From Micrococcaceae bacterium (GTDB lineage: Bacteria > Actinomycetota > Actinomycetes > Actinomycetales > Micrococcaceae): DNA of 56,939 nucleotides. Positions 22,696-29,506 of the stretch are shown here, piece after piece. The position numbers and the translations under genes are program-made. The number at the start of each line of letters is the position of its first letter. Position 1 is the stretch's first letter. The DNA lies in assembly GCA_025465475.1 (NCBI GenBank), contig JAODMR010000103.1, positions 1-56,939 on the forward strand, read 5' to 3'. Below the pieces are notes generated by a model. It did not search any database. It saw nothing but the letters and a program-made list of their open reading frames with translations, and was not told where the DNA came from.

Positions 22696-25344
22696 ATGCC
22701 GACTCCGCTGAACCAAAGCATCGCCGACGCCGTCCTGCTCAACCGGTCACTGCCGCTGAACGTGCTGCACCCCTATGTCCAGGGCGCCGGAACCGCCAAT
22801 GACGGGTTCTCGCCCCGGCTGCTCACCGAATTGCGCCTGTTGGCCCGTACGCCGAACCTGCTGGTCGCGTGCAACTACGGTGGCACCCTGTGCGAGGCGG
22901 AGGGAGTGTCCACCGAGATCCTCCCCCGGGGCGGAGCGTCCGTGGCGTTGCGTGCGCTGGCCGCATTGCCCAACACCCATGCAGCCGTTATTTCCGGGCG
23001 GTCCTTGCGGGACCTGGCGTCCGTGTCGCGGCTGCCGGCTGAAATCCACCTGGTGGGCTCGCACGGCGCGGAAGGGGACATGCTCTTCGCCCATGGACTG
23101 GAACTGCACACCGAAGCGGTCCTGCAGCAGGCGGGGCGCATTCTGGAGGAGGCCGTGGGGGCCGAACGCGGCATCACCATCGAGCGCAAGCCGGTGGCCG
23201 TGGCCGTGCACACCCGGTTCGCTCCGCCGGAGGTCGTGGAACGGGTGAAGGCGCGTGCCCGGGCCGTTGCCGATGAACACGGCATGTACTTCCTTGAGGA
23301 CCGGTCAGTGCTGGACCTGTCCATGGTGGAACCATCCAAGGGCCTGGCACTGGAGCGGCTGCGCTCCCAGCTGGGCGCCGGGGCAGCACTGTACGCGGGG
23401 GACGCCAGCAGCGACGAGTACGCGTTGCGGACCCTCCGCGGACCGGACCTAGGCATCTGGGTCGGCGACGGGGCAGGGGCGGCAGAGCACCATGTCCGCG
23501 ACCCCGAGGCTTTCGCCCGGGTCCTGGCCATTCTTTTTGAACTGCGCCGATCGTGGCTTTTCGGTGAGGACGCAGTGGGCCTGGAACGGCACACCCTGCT
23601 TGGCAACGGGGCGTCCACCGCGCTGCTGACGCCCGACGCGACGGTCTGCTGGATGAGCCATCCGTTGCCGGACTCCGGATCCCTGTTTGCGCATCTGCTG
23701 GGCGGCGATGCGGCAGGGCACTTCAGCATCGAGCCTGTAAAGGTGTCCCAGGTGCTGGGGCAACGCTACGTCGACAACACCATGTTGGTGGAGACCCGGT
23801 GGGCGGAGGTCACCGTCACCGACTACCTGGAACCGTCTCCGGAGGGAATCACAACGCTGGTGCGCACGCTGAACGGTTCGGGCGACGCGCGGATCACGTT
23901 CGCTCCCCGCCCCGACTACGCCAATGCCCCGTTTGCCATGGAACGGCGCGGCGAGGCCGTGCACGTCGTCGGCACCTCTGACCCCATCCAGCTCTGGGCG
24001 CCCGGCGTGGACTTCACCCTGACCTCCGACGGGCGGCATGCGACGGCGACAGCCGTGGTGGCCCTGCAGGACGGGCCGATCGTGCTGACCCTGCGCTGCG
24101 GTGACACTGAGTCTTTCACTCCCGACCCGGACCAGGAACCGCTGCGGCGGGCCGTCCTCATCGCCGCCACGCGCGGTTGGACCCAGTCCCTTGACATTCC
24201 GGGGGTCAAACCCTCCCTGGTTGCACGTTCCGCCCTGACCCTGCGCGCCATGGTGCACGAACCCACCGGCGGCGTGCTTGCCGCGCCGACAACTTCCCTG
24301 CCCGAGGGCATTGGCGGCACGCGCAACTGGGATTACCGGTACTGCTGGCTGCGGGACGGCTCGATGACCGTCCGAGCCCTCGTTGACCTCGGTTCCACCG
24401 CTGAAGCCGAGGGGTTCCTCGCCTGGCTGACCCGAATCCTGGCCAATTCTCCCGGCCCCGAGTGGCTCCACCCGCTGTATTCCGTCTCCGGTGCGCCTAT
24501 GTCCTCGGAGGCCTCCGTGGAAAACCTGCCCGGTTACGCCGGTTCCCGGCCGGTACGGATTGGAAACGCTGCTGACCACCAGGTTCAACTGGACGTTTTT
24601 GGGCCCATCACGGAGCTCATCGACACCCTCAGCCAACGCCGCAGCGCCCTCAGCGACAGCGAGTGGTCGCTGGTCCAGCAGATGGCCGCCGCCGTCGTCG
24701 CCCGCTGGCATGAGCCGGACCACGGGATCTGGGAAGCGCGCAGGCCGCCCCGGCATCACGTCTACACCAAGGTCATGTGCTGGGTAACCCTGGACCGTGC
24801 CCTCCGCATCGCAGGCCGGCACGGTCGCACGCCCGACTCCGGATGGGCCGCCCTGGCTGAAACCATTCGTTCCGAGGTCCTAACGGAAGGCTGGAGCCAA
24901 GCCGCCACCTCCTACACGGTCGCCTACGACAGTGACGACCTGGACGCCGCGGTCCTGCATGTGGGCCTGTCCGGCCTGTTGGATGTTGCCGATCCCCGGT
25001 TCCACGCGACGGTGGCAGCAGTGGAGCGCGAGCTGCGCGCCGGGCCCACGGTGTTCCGCTACCACTACGACGACGGCCTGCCGGGCCTGGAGGGCGGCTT
25101 CCACATCTGCACCACCTGGCTGATCGAGGCCTACCTCGCGGTGGGCCGGTATGACGACGCCGAGAAGCTGTTCAGCCAGCTGGTCAGCCTGATGGGTCCG
25201 ACGGGACTGTTGCCTGAAGAGTACGATCCGGCCACGGAGAGGCACCTGGGCAACCATCCCCAGGCTTACTCGCACCTGGGCTTCATCCGCTGCGCGCAAC
25301 TGCTGCACAATCGTGTCCGGGCCGACGCCGTGGTGAGCGCCTGA
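22696..25344 (+). CDS. GH15 glucanase/trehalase-like enzyme fused to a degenerate trehalose-phosphatase domain
   Basis: An 882-residue fusion. Residues about 35-275 align with trehalose-6-phosphate phosphatase (OtsB, HAD fold): ISGRSLRDLASVSRLPAEIH, LVGSHGAEGDM, the Lys motif VEPSKGLALERL and YAGDASSDEYAL. However, motif I reads ACNYGGT (residues 58-64) in place of DxDGT, so both catalytic aspartates are missing, and GDD of motif IV is GDA. Residues about 290-875 are a GH15 (alpha/alpha)6 domain: WMSHPLPDSGSLFAHLLGG, NWDYRYCWLRDGSMTVRAL near 540, and LLPEEYDP with the likely catalytic Glu. GH15 enzymes hydrolyse trehalose or alpha-glucans. ATG 22696 has AAGG five bases upstream. The phosphatase part is probably regulatory or structural. 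Confidence 0.9.
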   Translation: MPTPLNQSIADAVLLNRSLPLNVLHPYVQGAGTANDGFSPRLLTELRLLARTPNLLVACNYGGTLCEAEGVSTEILPRGGASVALRALAALPNTHAAVISGRSLRDLASVSRLPAEIHLVGSHGAEGDMLFAHGLELHTEAVLQQAGRILEEAVGAERGITIERKPVAVAVHTRFAPPEVVERVKARARAVADEHGMYFLEDRSVLDLSMVEPSKGLALERLRSQLGAGAALYAGDASSDEYALRTLRGPDLGIWVGDGAGAAEHHVRDPEAFARVLAILFELRRSWLFGEDAVGLERHTLLGNGASTALLTPDATVCWMSHPLPDSGSLFAHLLGGDAAGHFSIEPVKVSQVLGQRYVDNTMLVETRWAEVTVTDYLEPSPEGITTLVRTLNGSGDARITFAPRPDYANAPFAMERRGEAVHVVGTSDPIQLWAPGVDFTLTSDGRHATATAVVALQDGPIVLTLRCGDTESFTPDPDQEPLRRAVLIAATRGWTQSLDIPGVKPSLVARSALTLRAMVHEPTGGVLAAPTTSLPEGIGGTRNWDYRYCWLRDGSMTVRALVDLGSTAEAEGFLAWLTRILANSPGPEWLHPLYSVSGAPMSSEASVENLPGYAGSRPVRIGNAADHQVQLDVFGPITELIDTLSQRRSALSDSEWSLVQQMAAAVVARWHEPDHGIWEARRPPRHHVYTKVMCWVTLDRALRIAGRHGRTPDSGWAALAETIRSEVLTEGWSQAATSYTVAYDSDDLDAAVLHVGLSGLLDVADPRFHATVAAVERELRAGPTVFRYHYDDGLPGLEGGFHICTTWLIEAYLAVGRYDDAEKLFSQLVSLMGPTGLLPEEYDPATERHLGNHPQAYSHLGFIRCAQLLHNRVRADAVVSA

Positions 25345-25353
25345 CCGGCTTCC

Positions 25354-26016
25354 CTACCCTCTGGGAGCGCTGTAGCGGTGCTCGGGCCGGCCGGTGCTGC
25401 CATACCGAAGATGGATTTCGACGGCGCCCTCGTCCGCGAGCGCCGACAGGTACCGTTGGGCGGTGGCCCGGGAAATGCCCACTGCCTGCGCCACCTCCAC
25501 CGCCGATTGCTGCATGCCCGGCCGCAGGGCTTCCAGCACCGCTGTTTCAGTAACTGATCGGGCCTTTGCGGGAGTTGCCACGGTTGCGCCATGCAGGGCG
25601 TTCAGCGCCCGGTCGACGGCGTCCTGGCTCAGGTTTTGCTGGTCCGCCAACAGCCGGCGATAACGGGCGTAGGACCGCAGCTGCCGGGTCAGCTGGTCGG
25701 CGGTGAACGGCTTGATCAGATACCCCAGCGCGCCGCGGCGGATGGCCTTGCGGACCGAGCGGGCGTCGGCGGCCGCGGTGAGCATCATGACGTCCACGTC
25801 CACGCTGCGCAGCAGTTCCAGGCCCAACGCGTCCGGCAGGTACACATCCAGCAGGATGAGGTCGGGTTCGTCGCTGTGCACCACCCGCAACGCCTGCTCG
25901 GCGGTCCCTACCGGGGTCATGGCGGTGAATCCCGGGACCGCCGCTACAAAGCCGGCGTGCAGGCGGCCCACGTGAAAGTCGTCGTCGACAATCAGGACTC
26001 TTAGGTCTTCGGTCAC
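25354..26016 (-). CDS. CitB/DcuR-type response regulator
   Basis: A 220-residue response regulator. The receiver domain has acidic residues DDD at 11-13, the phosphoacceptor Asp57 in LILLDVYLP and Lys102 in GYLIKPF. The output domain is a winged helix (EVAQAVGISRATAQRYLSAL), as in CitB/DpiA/DcuR regulators, which switch on C4-dicarboxylate or citrate uptake genes. The GTG start overlaps the stop of the sensor-kinase gene in GTGA, so the pair is translationally coupled. The frame extends upstream to 26067 but that would overlap the kinase far more. The likely target is the divergent CitMHS gene. Confidence 0.92.
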   Translation of the reverse strand: MTEDLRVLIVDDDFHVGRLHAGFVAAVPGFTAMTPVGTAEQALRVVHSDEPDLILLDVYLPDALGLELLRSVDVDVMMLTAAADARSVRKAIRRGALGYLIKPFTADQLTRQLRSYARYRRLLADQQNLSQDAVDRALNALHGATVATPAKARSVTETAVLEALRPGMQQSAVEVAQAVGISRATAQRYLSALADEGAVEIHLRYGSTGRPEHRYSAPRG

Positions 26017-27896
26017 CGTTCCTCCATCATTTCCCGTGCCGCCATCGTTCCGGGCAGGCGCGCGCAAAAAACAGCGCCGGGCCCGCCCGGACGGCCGGGA
26101 TCGGCCACCCAGACCTCACCGCCGCGCCGACGGGCCAGCTGCCGGCTCAAGGGCAAACCAAAGCCGTGTCCGTGGATGTCCGGCAGCACCAGGGCGGGCT
26201 GGGCGGACCATTCGGTTCCCGGCGTCGCCGCCGCTGCTGCCGTCGAAAATCCCTCGGCGAAGATCTCTTCCGCCAGTCCAGCAGCTCCGGCGCCGGCAGC
26301 GGCACCGTCGGCTGGAGTACCACCGGCGGCACCGCCGGCAACACCGCCGTCGGCAGCAGCTCCGTCGGCCCGGGCGAGTCCGTTCCCGGAGTCGGCCACC
26401 ACCATGTGCAGGACACCGTCCGTTGGTTCGTCCAGCAGTTCCACTTCCACCCAGCGCTCGCCGGCCGAACCGTGCACGGCGGCGCGGACCGCGTTATCGA
26501 TCAGGTTGCCGAGCACCGTCGTCACATCCTGCGGCTCGACGACCTGCCCGCGCAGGGACGTTTCGGGTCCCAAGCGCAGGTTCACGCCACGCTCGGCGGC
26601 CTCCACGCTTTTGGCACCGATGAAGGCCTGCAGGTAGGGGTCCTGGAGCAGTTCCGCCTGCTCCAGCGGATAGTTCAGGGGTCCGGTGGACATCACCGCC
26701 CCGACATAGGCCCTTGCCTCGTCATACTCACCCATGGTCAGCAGGCCGGAGACCGTGTGCAGCCGGTTGGCGAACTCGTGCCGTTGCGCGCGCAGGGCGG
26801 TGCTCAAGGCCCCGACGGCGTCCAGTTGGCGTGTCAGGGACTGCAGCTCCGTCCGGTCCCGCAGCATCACCACCCACCCCAGCCGGGGACCGCTGCGGCG
26901 TTCGGTCTCCTCGTCCAGGATTTTTCGGCCCAGCCGCCGCCTGGGCTGGACGGCCCGGGCAGTGAGAATCAGGACCCTGCTGCCGACGACCTGCTCCACG
27001 GCGGGGGACTCGGGCGTCGCGAGCTCCAGCAGGCCCGCCAGGGCGACCGGCAGGGGAGCCTTCCCCAAGTCGAGACCAACCACGTCGACACCGGCCGGCA
27101 GGTCCAGCAGCCGTCGGGCTTCCCGATTGAACACGGTGATCCTTCGCTCGGCCGAGACACCGATGACGCCATCGTCCACGCCGCGCAGCACCGCCTCCTG
27201 ATCCTGGGCCTGGGCGGCGATTTCCTCCGGTTCCAGGCCCAGCGTCAGCCGGCGGAGCCGGCGACCCAACAGCACGGAGGCGATGGCGCCCAGGCCCAGT
27301 GCCGCGGCGGCGGTGAGGACCACGGGCAGGATGCTGATGCCCAGGGTGTCCAGGATGCCGGCGCTGGAATAGCCCACGCTGACCTCACCCACAACCGTTG
27401 ATGCGCCGGGCGCGAAGACCGGAACCTTGGCTCGCGCGGAGCGGCCCAGCGTACCTTGCTCCGAACTGGTCACCTCGGTCCCGGCAAGCGGCCCGCTCGG
27501 GTCGGTGCTGACCCGCTGTCCCAGCAACTGCAGGTTGGGATGAGCCAGCCGAAGTCCGGCATCATCGGTGACGACAACGAACAGGGACCCGGTGCGACGG
27601 CGTACTTCCTCAGCGAACTGCTGGAGGGGACCGCCTGCCAGCAGGGCGGGTGTCAGCTGCTCAGGCGGCGCCTCCGCCAGCCCGCTCACCTGTGTACGCA
27701 CCTCGGGGGCCGCCGCCACGGAACGCGCTACGGCCAGGGCCTGCTCCTGCGCTTCAGTGCCCAGCCGCTCATAGGTGAGCCAGCCGAAGACCGCCGCGGA
27801 GAGCAGAACGACGACGGCCACCACGGCCAACTGCAGGGCCAGCATGCGACCGGAGAAGCCAATCCTGATTCGGCCTGCCCGGCGGTGCGGCATCAT
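26013..27896 (-). CDS. CitA/DcuS-type sensor histidine kinase
   Basis: A 627-residue membrane sensor. A first transmembrane helix (about 17-42) is followed by an extracytoplasmic Cache-like domain of about 130 residues and a second helix (ISILPVVLTAAAALGLGAIA), then a PAS domain (VDDGVIGVSAERRITVFNRE), a His box QRHEFANRLHTVSGLL near residue 370 and an HATPase with N box GNLIDNAVRAA. This is the CitA/DcuS plan for sensing citrate or dicarboxylates outside the cell. Between the D-x-G box (VADSGNGLA) and the HGHGFGL box lies an Ala/Gly-rich stretch of about 40 residues not usual for the family. AGGAAGGG precedes paired ATGs at 27896 and 27893. It is divergent from the citrate transporter. Confidence 0.93.
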   Translation of the reverse strand: MMPHRRAGRIRIGFSGRMLALQLAVVAVVVLLSAAVFGWLTYERLGTEAQEQALAVARSVAAAPEVRTQVSGLAEAPPEQLTPALLAGGPLQQFAEEVRRRTGSLFVVVTDDAGLRLAHPNLQLLGQRVSTDPSGPLAGTEVTSSEQGTLGRSARAKVPVFAPGASTVVGEVSVGYSSAGILDTLGISILPVVLTAAAALGLGAIASVLLGRRLRRLTLGLEPEEIAAQAQDQEAVLRGVDDGVIGVSAERRITVFNREARRLLDLPAGVDVVGLDLGKAPLPVALAGLLELATPESPAVEQVVGSRVLILTARAVQPRRRLGRKILDEETERRSGPRLGWVVMLRDRTELQSLTRQLDAVGALSTALRAQRHEFANRLHTVSGLLTMGEYDEARAYVGAVMSTGPLNYPLEQAELLQDPYLQAFIGAKSVEAAERGVNLRLGPETSLRGQVVEPQDVTTVLGNLIDNAVRAAVHGSAGERWVEVELLDEPTDGVLHMVVADSGNGLARADGAAADGGVAGGAAGGTPADGAAAGAGAAGLAEEIFAEGFSTAAAAATPGTEWSAQPALVLPDIHGHGFGLPLSRQLARRRGGEVWVADPGRPGGPGAVFCARLPGTMAAREMMEER

Positions 27897-28036
27897 TTCC
27901 CTTCCTGATCTAAATGAGCAAAACGTGCGCAACAAGCAGTATGCACCTCAACCGGGCGAAAGGCCCACCCGTGATCTGGGCCACTATACGGTTTGTTACG
28001 CCGGTCACAACGATGGGCCGCCAGTTAGGAGCAGTA

Positions 28037-29506
28037 ATGCTAATTGTCCTCGGATTCGCCATGATCGCCGCGTTCATGGCGTTGATCATGACCAAGAAAC
28101 TCACGCCGGTGCTGGCGCTCATCCTGGTCCCCACCATTTTCGGTCTGTTCGCCGGAGCTGGCCTGGGCATCGGCGATATGGTCCTTGACTCCATGAAGAG
28201 CCTCACCTCGACGGCCGCGCTGCTGATGTTCGCCATCATCTTCTTCGGTCTGATGATCGACGTCGGCCTGTTTGACCCGCTGGTCAAGTTCATTCTCCGG
28301 ATCCTCGGCAATGACCCGGCCAAGGTGGTTCTTGGAACCGCCGTCCTGGCCGCCGTGGTGTCGCTCGACGGGGATGGGTCCACCACCTTCATCCTGACGA
28401 CGGCGGCCATGCTGCCGATCTACCTGCGTCTGGGCCTCAGCCCCGTCATCCTGACCTGCGTGGCCGGCCTGGCCAATGGCACCATGAACATTGTGCCCTG
28501 GGGCGGTCCGACGGCCCGCGCCGCAGCGGCGCTGAAGGTTTCCCCCTCGGAGGTCTTCGTTCCAATGCTGCCGTCCCTGGCCGCTGGCATGATCATCGTC
28601 ATGGTTTTCGCCTGGACCCTGGGTCTGCAGGAGCGCAAGCGCCTGGCGATCGCCAACCCGGAAGCCGGACGCACCGGCACGTGGGGTGGCGGAACCGTCT
28701 TCGGTGGTGCAGTGACCCGCGCTGCAGGCAACGGATCAACCCGCTCAACCACTGGCGGCACGAGCCACACCTCCGGCGGAGTGGCCTTGCGGGAGCGTCC
28801 GACGATGACGGAGGGCGGCGGATTGCCGGCTTCACCGGCGACTTCGATGCTGGCAGGTTCCGCGCTCGACCCGAACCGTGCCACCCTGCGCCCCCGGTTG
28901 TTCTGGTTCAACCTCGCCCTGACCATCGCGGTCATGGTCCTGCTGGTGATGGACCTTATGCCGCTCGCTTACGTCTTCATGGTCGGGGCAGCCATTGCCC
29001 TGGTCGTGAACTTCCCCCGCATGAAGGAGCAGGCCGCCCAATTGGTTGCCCACGCCCCCAGCGTCGTGGCCGTCGTTGCCATGGTCCTGGCGGCCGGCGT
29101 GCTCACCGGCGTCCTCAACGGCACCGGCATGGTTGATGCGATGTCGCAGTGGCTGGTCAACATCATTCCCACCTCCATGGGACCGTTCCTGGCCGTCATC
29201 ACCGGCCTGCTCAGCATCCCGATGACGTTCTTCATGAGCAACGATGCCTTCTACTTTGGGGTCCTTCCCGTGCTGAGCGAAACCGCAAGCCACTACGGAA
29301 TCGGTGCTGCGGAAATGGCGCGGGCGTCCATCGCCGGACAACCCGTCCACATGCAGAGCCCCCTGGTGCCCGCGATTCTGCTGCTCGTTTCGCTGGCCAA
29401 CGTGGATCTGGGCGACCATCACAAGAAGGTGCTCTGGCGTGCCCTGGTCGTCGCTTTGGTGATGCTCGGTGTCGGCATCGGGGTCGGTGCCATTCCCTGG
29501 GGCTGA
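28037..29506 (+). CDS. CitMHS family citrate-metal symporter
   Basis: A 489-residue transporter of the CitMHS family, which takes up citrate complexed with Mg2+ or Ca2+ together with protons. About twelve transmembrane helices are visible; VSLDGDGSTTFILTTAAMLP and ANGTMNIVPWGGPTARAA are diagnostic of the family, and the second half has FFMSNDAFYFGVLPVL and GQPVHMQSPLVPAILLL. A cytoplasmic loop rich in Gly, Ser and Thr (about residues 210-285) separates the halves. ATG 28037 is chosen for its AGGAG six bases upstream; the frame runs open from 27914. It is divergent from the CitA-like sensor gene and very likely under its control. A terminator follows at 29724-29765. Confidence 0.93.
   Translation: MLIVLGFAMIAAFMALIMTKKLTPVLALILVPTIFGLFAGAGLGIGDMVLDSMKSLTSTAALLMFAIIFFGLMIDVGLFDPLVKFILRILGNDPAKVVLGTAVLAAVVSLDGDGSTTFILTTAAMLPIYLRLGLSPVILTCVAGLANGTMNIVPWGGPTARAAAALKVSPSEVFVPMLPSLAAGMIIVMVFAWTLGLQERKRLAIANPEAGRTGTWGGGTVFGGAVTRAAGNGSTRSTTGGTSHTSGGVALRERPTMTEGGGLPASPATSMLAGSALDPNRATLRPRLFWFNLALTIAVMVLLVMDLMPLAYVFMVGAAIALVVNFPRMKEQAAQLVAHAPSVVAVVAMVLAAGVLTGVLNGTGMVDAMSQWLVNIIPTSMGPFLAVITGLLSIPMTFFMSNDAFYFGVLPVLSETASHYGIGAAEMARASIAGQPVHMQSPLVPAILLLVSLANVDLGDHHKKVLWRALVVALVMLGVGIGVGAIPWG

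Follow-up and report, generated by a model that had tools for sequence, protein, structure and literature searches.

The subject of this report is a fusion gene in a 56,939-nucleotide stretch of contig JAODMR010000103.1 (GenBank assembly GCA_025465475.1) from a Micrococcaceae bacterium; we call this whole stretch the window. The 884-amino-acid product joins a domain homologous to trehalose-6-phosphate phosphatase (TPP, the family of OtsB) to a TREH_N domain and a glycoside hydrolase family 15 (GH15) domain, and its TPP part has lost both aspartates of motif I and one of motif IV. This “dead” fusion is real and conserved, and pseudo-TPPs with a regulatory or structural role are already known as a kind of protein. 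Three replaced catalytic acids together with a mostly frozen pocket would be the pattern expected of a non-catalytic ligand-binding domain. Our favoured reading, held tentatively and with a little less than half of our belief, is that the pseudo-phosphatase persists as a ligand-binding module that regulates the GH15 hydrolase, the ligand probably being trehalose-6-phosphate (T6P).

Loss and Retention of the Phosphatase Motifs

The initial annotation, made from the DNA letters, had described a GH15 enzyme fused to a TPP domain without either motif I aspartate, and the open reading frame and domain searches bear this out. Pfam places the protein in PF02358 (TPP, residues 63-249, E 3.1e-16, 59.7 bits at a gathering cut-off of 27), followed by the two domains looked for in a GH15 trehalase, PF19291 (TREH_N, 284-488, E 1.6e-83) and PF00723 (GH15, 507-869, E 2.5e-59). 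Against TIGR00685, the OtsB equivalog model, the fusion scores 67.5 bits and narrowly misses the cut-off of 68.05; the intact fusion L005 scores 131.4. In motif I (residues 60-66) ACNYGGT stands in place of the DxDGT of TPPs, which corresponds to D62N and D64G relative to intact fusions, and motif IV reads GDASSDE (237-243) rather than GDDxTDE, with D239A. ACNYGGT is found in all 66 members of the lineage that retain the cap subdomain, this protein counted. The same 66 all keep D238 and D242, none has D239, and all carry S102 of motif II and K217 of motif III, the phosphate-binding residues. Alignment also confirmed the motifs that the annotation had listed as kept or altered: SGR at 102-104, GSHGAE at 123-128, Lys217 and GDA for GDD. 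A check for another aspartate at the nucleophile site found none, residues 53-73 of the protein being free of Asp. Position 69 is Asp in only 36% of the 66 relatives, so that an aspartate there is not conserved, and we rejected other Asp residues as a replacement nucleophile.

Work on the TPP of Brugia malayi helps to interpret these changes. In that enzyme, Asp213 is the nucleophile and a Mg ligand, Asp215 is the acid/base and contacts Mg through its main chain, Asp424 and Asp428 of motif IV are Mg ligands, Thr253 and Lys398 presumably hold the phosphate, and replacing either Asp213 or Asp215 abolished all detectable activity (PMC4081830). We infer that Asp213, Asp215, Asp424, Asp428, Thr253 and Lys398 correspond to N62, G64, D238, D242, S102 and K217 of the fusion. 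Because Asp424 and Asp428 map by motif spacing to the kept D238 and D242, the lost Asp239 would not be one of the two Mg ligands. On this correspondence the nucleophile and the acid/base would be gone, and the two Mg ligands and the phosphate holders would remain. By analogy with the inactive motif I mutants phosphatase chemistry should be lost, which supports, as an expectation, the loss of catalysis proposed in the annotation. In the cap, E165, K167, H174, R176 and D209 align with E123, K125, H132, R134 and E167 of the Salmonella typhimurium TPP, among which we take E123, K125 and E167 to be sugar contacts.

Fold predictions agree with a retained TPP architecture. AlphaFold2 modelled the whole protein from a 43-sequence alignment with a predicted local distance difference test score (pLDDT) of 86.7, and residues 296-879 of this model match the solved GH15 enzymes 1lf6 (Z 37.6) and 1ug9 (Z 36.8), both with a root-mean-square deviation (rmsd) of 3.3 over 526 aligned residues. 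Since the fold search with the full model covered only residues 296-879, the TPP domain was modelled alone with a 63-sequence alignment (pLDDT 91.1). Its six best solved matches are all TPPs, with Z scores of 24.1-26.6: 6upb (Z 26.6, rmsd 2.3, 235 aligned), 6qj6 (26.1, 2.4, 237), 5dxi (25.5, 3.1, 246), 5dx9 (25.1, 3.2, 249), 1u02 (24.5, 2.7, 224) and 5gvx (24.1, 3.5, 246). The Candida albicans trehalose synthase regulatory protein 5hus matches as well (Z 19.2, rmsd 3.0, 233 aligned). The kept fold that the annotation had supposed, a HAD core with the TPP cap, is thus supported as far as prediction can say.

Distribution and Origin of the Dead Lineage

Scanning 84,980 species, each represented by one genome, yielded at least 594 confirmed relatives, the best 80 of which were kept. 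The fusion occurs in 63/395 genomes of the same family (6/32 genera), in 43/396 of the order and in 31/394 of the class; the genome samples of the species-level, family, order and class surveys overlap. Thirteen of the 43 order matches and one of the 31 class matches were left outside the classification. L002, which covers part of the fusion gene in the window, and the four repeats L175-L178 were also set aside, giving 175 aligned fusions. These comprise 91 intact members with DxDGT, Lys, GDD and cap (including the incomplete L063 and L064, which are outside the tree and outside the 89 used for conservation), 66 dead members with cap, two dead members without cap, 15 cap-less members with DYDGA and GGGxGEE, and one with DGC for DGT (L036). 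The two cap-less dead sequences belong to a genus we label g85, where this form is present in 23/57 genomes (L179, L180 and L224-L244), always with ACNYGGT; the 21 further g85 members were kept out of the 175, the tree and the parsimony counts. A motif shared by 66/66 with-cap and 23/23 cap-less members is no chance event or sequencing error. In the alignment with other GH15 fusions that the annotation had proposed, the same architecture carries intact phosphatase motifs in most other lineages sampled, and the dead version is a conserved lineage.

In a tree built from the TREH_N/GH15 part of the proteins, the 68 dead sequences group together with a support of 0.89, and this group pairs at 1.0 with a clade made up of 21 intact fusions; support for the with-cap dead lineage excluding the two g85 sequences is weak (0.54). 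The intact sister clade is probably Brevibacterium, all 21 members sharing ATDYDGT with the named loci L023 and L049. The 15 cap-less DYDGA sequences make a separate clade (1.0) nested among intact fusions (0.94). As the dead clade is joined to intact fusions and the DYDGA clade is nested among them, the intact state was likely ancestral, with at least two separate losses of the phosphatase motifs. This second cap-less lineage, which includes Nocardiopsis and Glycomyces (loci L046, L048, L050, L057, L060, L065 and L211-L219), lost its cap and motif IV separately from the lineage of the window. GH15 proteins free of the domain also nest among the fusions: L058, L062 and L070 stand beside the intact L041 (0.95), and L073 beside the 15 DYDGA sequences (0.28 for the exact place). 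Four genomes of the same genus as the window (G001-G004) have no fusion. The closest relative that we found, at 79%, comes from G172, a member of a different genus (g8), and a further g8 genome (G011) has none either. Given this patchy presence, transfer or repeated loss of the fusion is likely.

Selection on the Changed Motif and the Pocket

Parsimony counts were made on the 66-tip subtree of dead members with cap, in the TREH_N/GH15 tree, and are given as amino-acid changes/codon changes per site. Residues 59-67 show no amino-acid change across the subtree and many synonymous ones. The counts are 0/14 for N62, 0/8 for G64, 0/16 for A239, 0/9 for K217 and 0/8 for K167, compared with a TPP-domain mean of 4.09/17.87; G65 has 26 codon changes and T66 many synonymous ones, neither with any change of amino acid. 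N62 is written AAC in 47 sequences and AAT in 19, and G64 uses all four glycine codons. The changed motif I is under purifying selection. Mean amino-acid changes per site are 4.09 in the TPP domain, 3.64 in TREH_N, 2.56 in GH15 and 5.0 in the N-terminal linker.

The rest of the pocket is mostly frozen too. Of 59 positions that are at least 95% conserved in the 89 intact fusions, 48 reach the same level of conservation among the 66 dead ones, and the only fixed differences between the two groups are D62N, D64G, G204D and D239A in the TPP domain and R723A in the TREH_N/GH15 part. Cap positions 165, 167, 174, 176 and 209 together have four amino-acid changes, where the cap averages 6.5 per site (permutation p 0.002).

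Redundancy and Linkage to otsA

We compared 30 fusion-bearing genomes picked by hand, 13 with a dead and 17 with an intact fused domain. A second PF02358 protein is present in 13/13 of the former and 7/17 of the latter (Fisher p 0.001, a value that ignores kinship, the losses being two), and all 13 second TPPs of the dead-fusion genomes carry DxDG and GDD. In the sampled genomes the TPP motifs were lost only where another TPP is present. OtsA was found in 30/30 genomes, and the window's own genome has otsA and otsB together on contig C100. Among loci with at least 1.4 kb upstream, OtsA is encoded immediately upstream of the fusion in 36/88 intact cases, in 0/34 dead cases with cap and in 0/6 cap-less DYDGA cases. 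Since 10/17 intact-fusion genomes yielded no TPP other than the fusion, and the fusion is often linked to otsA, the intact form plausibly serves many Actinobacteria as their working OtsB.

Two open frames, L221:52-4005 (1318 aa) and L222:13-4029 (1339 aa), join T6P synthase, TPP, TREH_N and GH15, so that domains for synthesis, dephosphorylation and hydrolysis stand in one polypeptide. Genomes G784 and G1081 hold extra TPP domains in open frames of 1387-1457 aa, which are possibly OtsB1-like.

The GH15 Half

E682 and E843, which we presumptively place as the catalytic glutamates by motif against E179 and E400 of Aspergillus niger, are retained in 66/66 dead members with cap; for E682 the matched ranges agree to within one residue. 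The FGP of QLDVFGP, considered as a lost catalytic Glu, was rejected: the general acid is E682 by motif, and FGP is common to nearly all members shown. The best NCBIfam matches are TreH1 (348.8, cut-off 820) and TreH2 (295, cut-off 1000), both archaeal by name and both with cut-offs well above the fusion's score. On the strength of TREH_N, the TreH1 match and the otsA linkage of relatives, the attached hydrolase is likely a trehalase. Three further GH15 proteins are encoded in the same genome (L245, L246 and L247; contigs C30, C102 and C140), with archaeal TreH1 scores of 358 and 365 for two of them, much like the fusion, and a lower 258 for the third. With two scores close to that of the fusion, several trehalase-like enzymes may be present in this genome. 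An ATP-sensitive trehalase activity is reported in Mycobacterium smegmatis (PMC5371599), so that control of trehalase in Actinobacteria has a precedent.

What the Dead Domain Might Do

The course of events that we favour begins with an ancestor, probably a functional fusion of TPP and GH15 whose gene often lay beside otsA. In a Micrococcales lineage the presence of a separate OtsB would have freed the fused domain to lose D62 and D64 of motif I, and D239, and most of the pocket would have stayed: the motif II serine, the motif III lysine, the two Mg ligands and most of the sugar-contact positions of the cap. Phosphatase mutants with the nucleophile changed to Asn can bind their substrate without cleaving it, and the fused domain may likewise bind T6P or a similar sugar phosphate uncleaved. 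The bound state could then gate the attached hydrolase, for example by restraining trehalose hydrolysis during trehalose synthesis. A more specific form of the idea, which we consider possible but rather doubtful, is a T6P-gated trehalase, in which the phosphatase half has become a natural substrate trap (D to N, D to G) that reports synthesis by OtsA and switches GH15 off or on, sparing the cell a futile cycle. The intact fusions may already use substrate occupancy to control GH15.

Several observations weigh against a ligand-binding regulator. Amino-acid changes accumulate faster in the TPP domain than in GH15 (4.09 vs 2.56 per site). E165 is replaced by V or M in 11/66 dead members with cap, and further pocket replacements affect H174 in two, R176 in one and H125 in one. 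G204D is fixed in the cap, and the ligand may therefore differ. The TreH1 score of 348.8, set against a cut-off of 820, also speaks against taking the trehalase specificity of GH15 as firm. The strongest evidence against a universal sensor comes from g85, in which 23/23 members are without the cap and Lys217, and 19/23 have GSNG for GSHG, with ACNYGGT, SGR and GD kept; conservation of the core motifs alone thus needs no sugar-phosphate binding. Either nothing but a scaffold role is left to the domain in g85, or the core motifs are kept for packing throughout.

The main rival is a structural scaffold. In this reading GH15 would depend on the HAD core for folding, for an interface or for oligomer formation, ligand binding would play no part, and the ACNYGGT loop would be kept for packing. 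We regard this as a possibility of limited probability. Two lineages dropped the cap and kept the HAD core on GH15, namely g85 (23/23, with motif I invariant) and the Nocardiopsis/Glycomyces type (15/15, DYDGA, GGGxGEE). However, the related L058, L062, L070 and L073 do without the domain altogether, and a pure scaffold leaves unexplained why K167, H174, R176 and K217 are kept in 64-66 of 66 sequences despite a fast-changing cap. The annotation had offered a T6P sensor or a structural module as alternatives: pocket conservation favours the first, and g85, with its cap deleted, Lys217 lost and ACNYGGT kept, the second.

An improbable alternative is that the pseudo-TPP docks onto OtsA or OtsB and recruits the hydrolase to a trehalose-metabolism complex, as the fungal TPP-like subunits might suggest. 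The match to 5hus, the intact fusions with OtsA immediately upstream and the four-domain frames L221 and L222 are in keeping with it, but the absence of otsA linkage from all 34 loci of the dead lineage, and the fact that conservation was traced in the pocket, speak against it. Decay of a domain made redundant by OtsB seems very unlikely: the loss is indeed seen only alongside a second TPP (13/13 in the 30 genomes sampled), and relatives show cap deletions and whole-domain losses, but N62, G64, G65, T66 and A239 have no amino-acid change, with many synonymous ones, over 66 sequences. We give almost no credence to an enzyme with a different mechanism, for although the inferred Mg-ligand positions D238 and D242 and also Ser102 and Lys217 are kept, HAD phosphatases use the motif I Asp as nucleophile, either substitution abolished detectable activity of the B. 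malayi TPP (PMC4081830), and the residues next to motif I offer no conserved Asp in its stead.

Were the sensor reading true, a bacterial protein would use a dead phosphatase to read T6P and to control a trehalase in cis, and this would be one way in which bacteria stop trehalose synthesis and hydrolysis from cancelling out. The family is a natural experiment that allows intact fusions, dead ones with or without the cap, and proteins free of the domain to be compared. Its members meanwhile risk misannotation as EC 3.1.3.12.

The Gene and Its Surroundings

Features of the fusion gene are collected in Table 1. The annotation had begun the gene at the in-frame ATG at 22696, which exists; the open reading frame starts two codons earlier, at a GTG.

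Table 1. Features of the fusion gene, with positions in the window and residues of the 884-aa protein.
Feature	Position	Strand	Remarks
Pseudo-TPP/TREH_N/GH15 fusion gene, 884 aa	22690..25344	+	Starts at GTG; an ATG in frame at 22696 is the alternative
HAD-type TPP-like domain with cap, residues 36-296	22795..23577	+	Pfam, AlphaFold2 model, fold matches among solved TPPs
Degenerate motif I ACNYGGT, residues 60-66, D62N and D64G	22867..22887	+	Alignment with fusions
Motif II SGR, residues 102-104, kept	22993..23001	+	Alignment
GSHGAE, residues 123-128, kept	23056..23073	+	Alignment
Cap region, residues 131-215; E165, K167, H174, R176 and D209 aligned to conserved TPP cap positions	23080..23334	+	
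Motif III Lys217, kept	23338..23340	+	Alignment, parsimony counts
Motif IV GDASSDE, residues 237-243; D239A; D238 and D242 kept	23398..23418	+	
TREH_N domain, residues 284-488	23539..24153	+	Pfam
GH15 catalytic domain, residues 507-869; E682 and E843, both presumed catalytic, are kept	24208..25296	+	Pfam; catalytic assignment by motif

The six neighbours scanned in the window are a Na+/H+ exchanger, a response regulator, a sensor kinase, a CitMHS transporter, RecQ and kynureninase; none belongs to trehalose metabolism, and a trehalose-gene neighbourhood was rejected. Conserved synteny was rejected too, as 0/9 window neighbours have a homologue at E 1e-20 in L003, L004 and L047 (about 6 kb on each side), and the same nine have none in the short flanks of seven further loci of the dead lineage. 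A promoter scan found nothing. At 25354-29506 a response regulator and a cache-domain histidine kinase lie divergent from the CitMHS-type transporter; the three probably form a system for the uptake of citrate or a dicarboxylate.

Comparison with Known Systems

Among the open-licence PMC articles listed, no title or abstract opening dealt with a TPP-GH15 fusion or a bacterial pseudo-TPP sensor, which is no proof that none is published, and passages of PMC7688234 and PMC5527307 have nothing on such a fusion. A CAZyme table of an Arthrobacter genome lists a GH15 entry of 2,628 bp under the name trehalose-6-phosphate phosphatase (PMC8171050); judged by the table entry, it is probably a fusion of the same kind.

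The TPP part shares with OtsB (PF02358; TIGR00685) the HAD core with cap, SGR, GSHGxE, the motif III lysine and the GD of motif IV, and unlike OtsB it lacks both aspartates of motif I, together with the second Asp of GDD, and is fused to GH15. The partner domain of OtsB1 (Rv2006) of Mycobacterium tuberculosis is GH65. The window's protein resembles OtsB1 in being a TPP homologue within a much larger chain, but with GH15 as the partner it is not of the OtsB1 type. OtsB1 itself, of 1327 aa, is reported to be a large TPP homologue that lacks TPP activity and has no assigned function (PMC11046441). Another account gives yeast TPSP-type subunits regulatory and structural roles and describes plant class II proteins as catalytically inactive (PMC3634074). 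The fungal Tsl1/Tps3 proteins (5hus) have in common with the fusion the TPP fold, the regulatory or structural role being theirs; they are eukaryotic, with a TPS-like half and no glycoside hydrolase, whereas the fusion has no GT20 domain and falls outside their type. Archaeal TreH1/TreH2 and the mycobacterial trehalase have TREH_N and GH15 in common with the fusion, which lies below both equivalog cut-offs, and to our knowledge they carry no TPP domain. The 91 intact fusions of TPP with GH15 come for the most part from Actinobacteria, a few records being titled as other phyla; they have the same domain order at about 39-58% identity, share the GH15 motif Glu in the aligned members that reach that far, and differ by their intact DxDGT and GDD.

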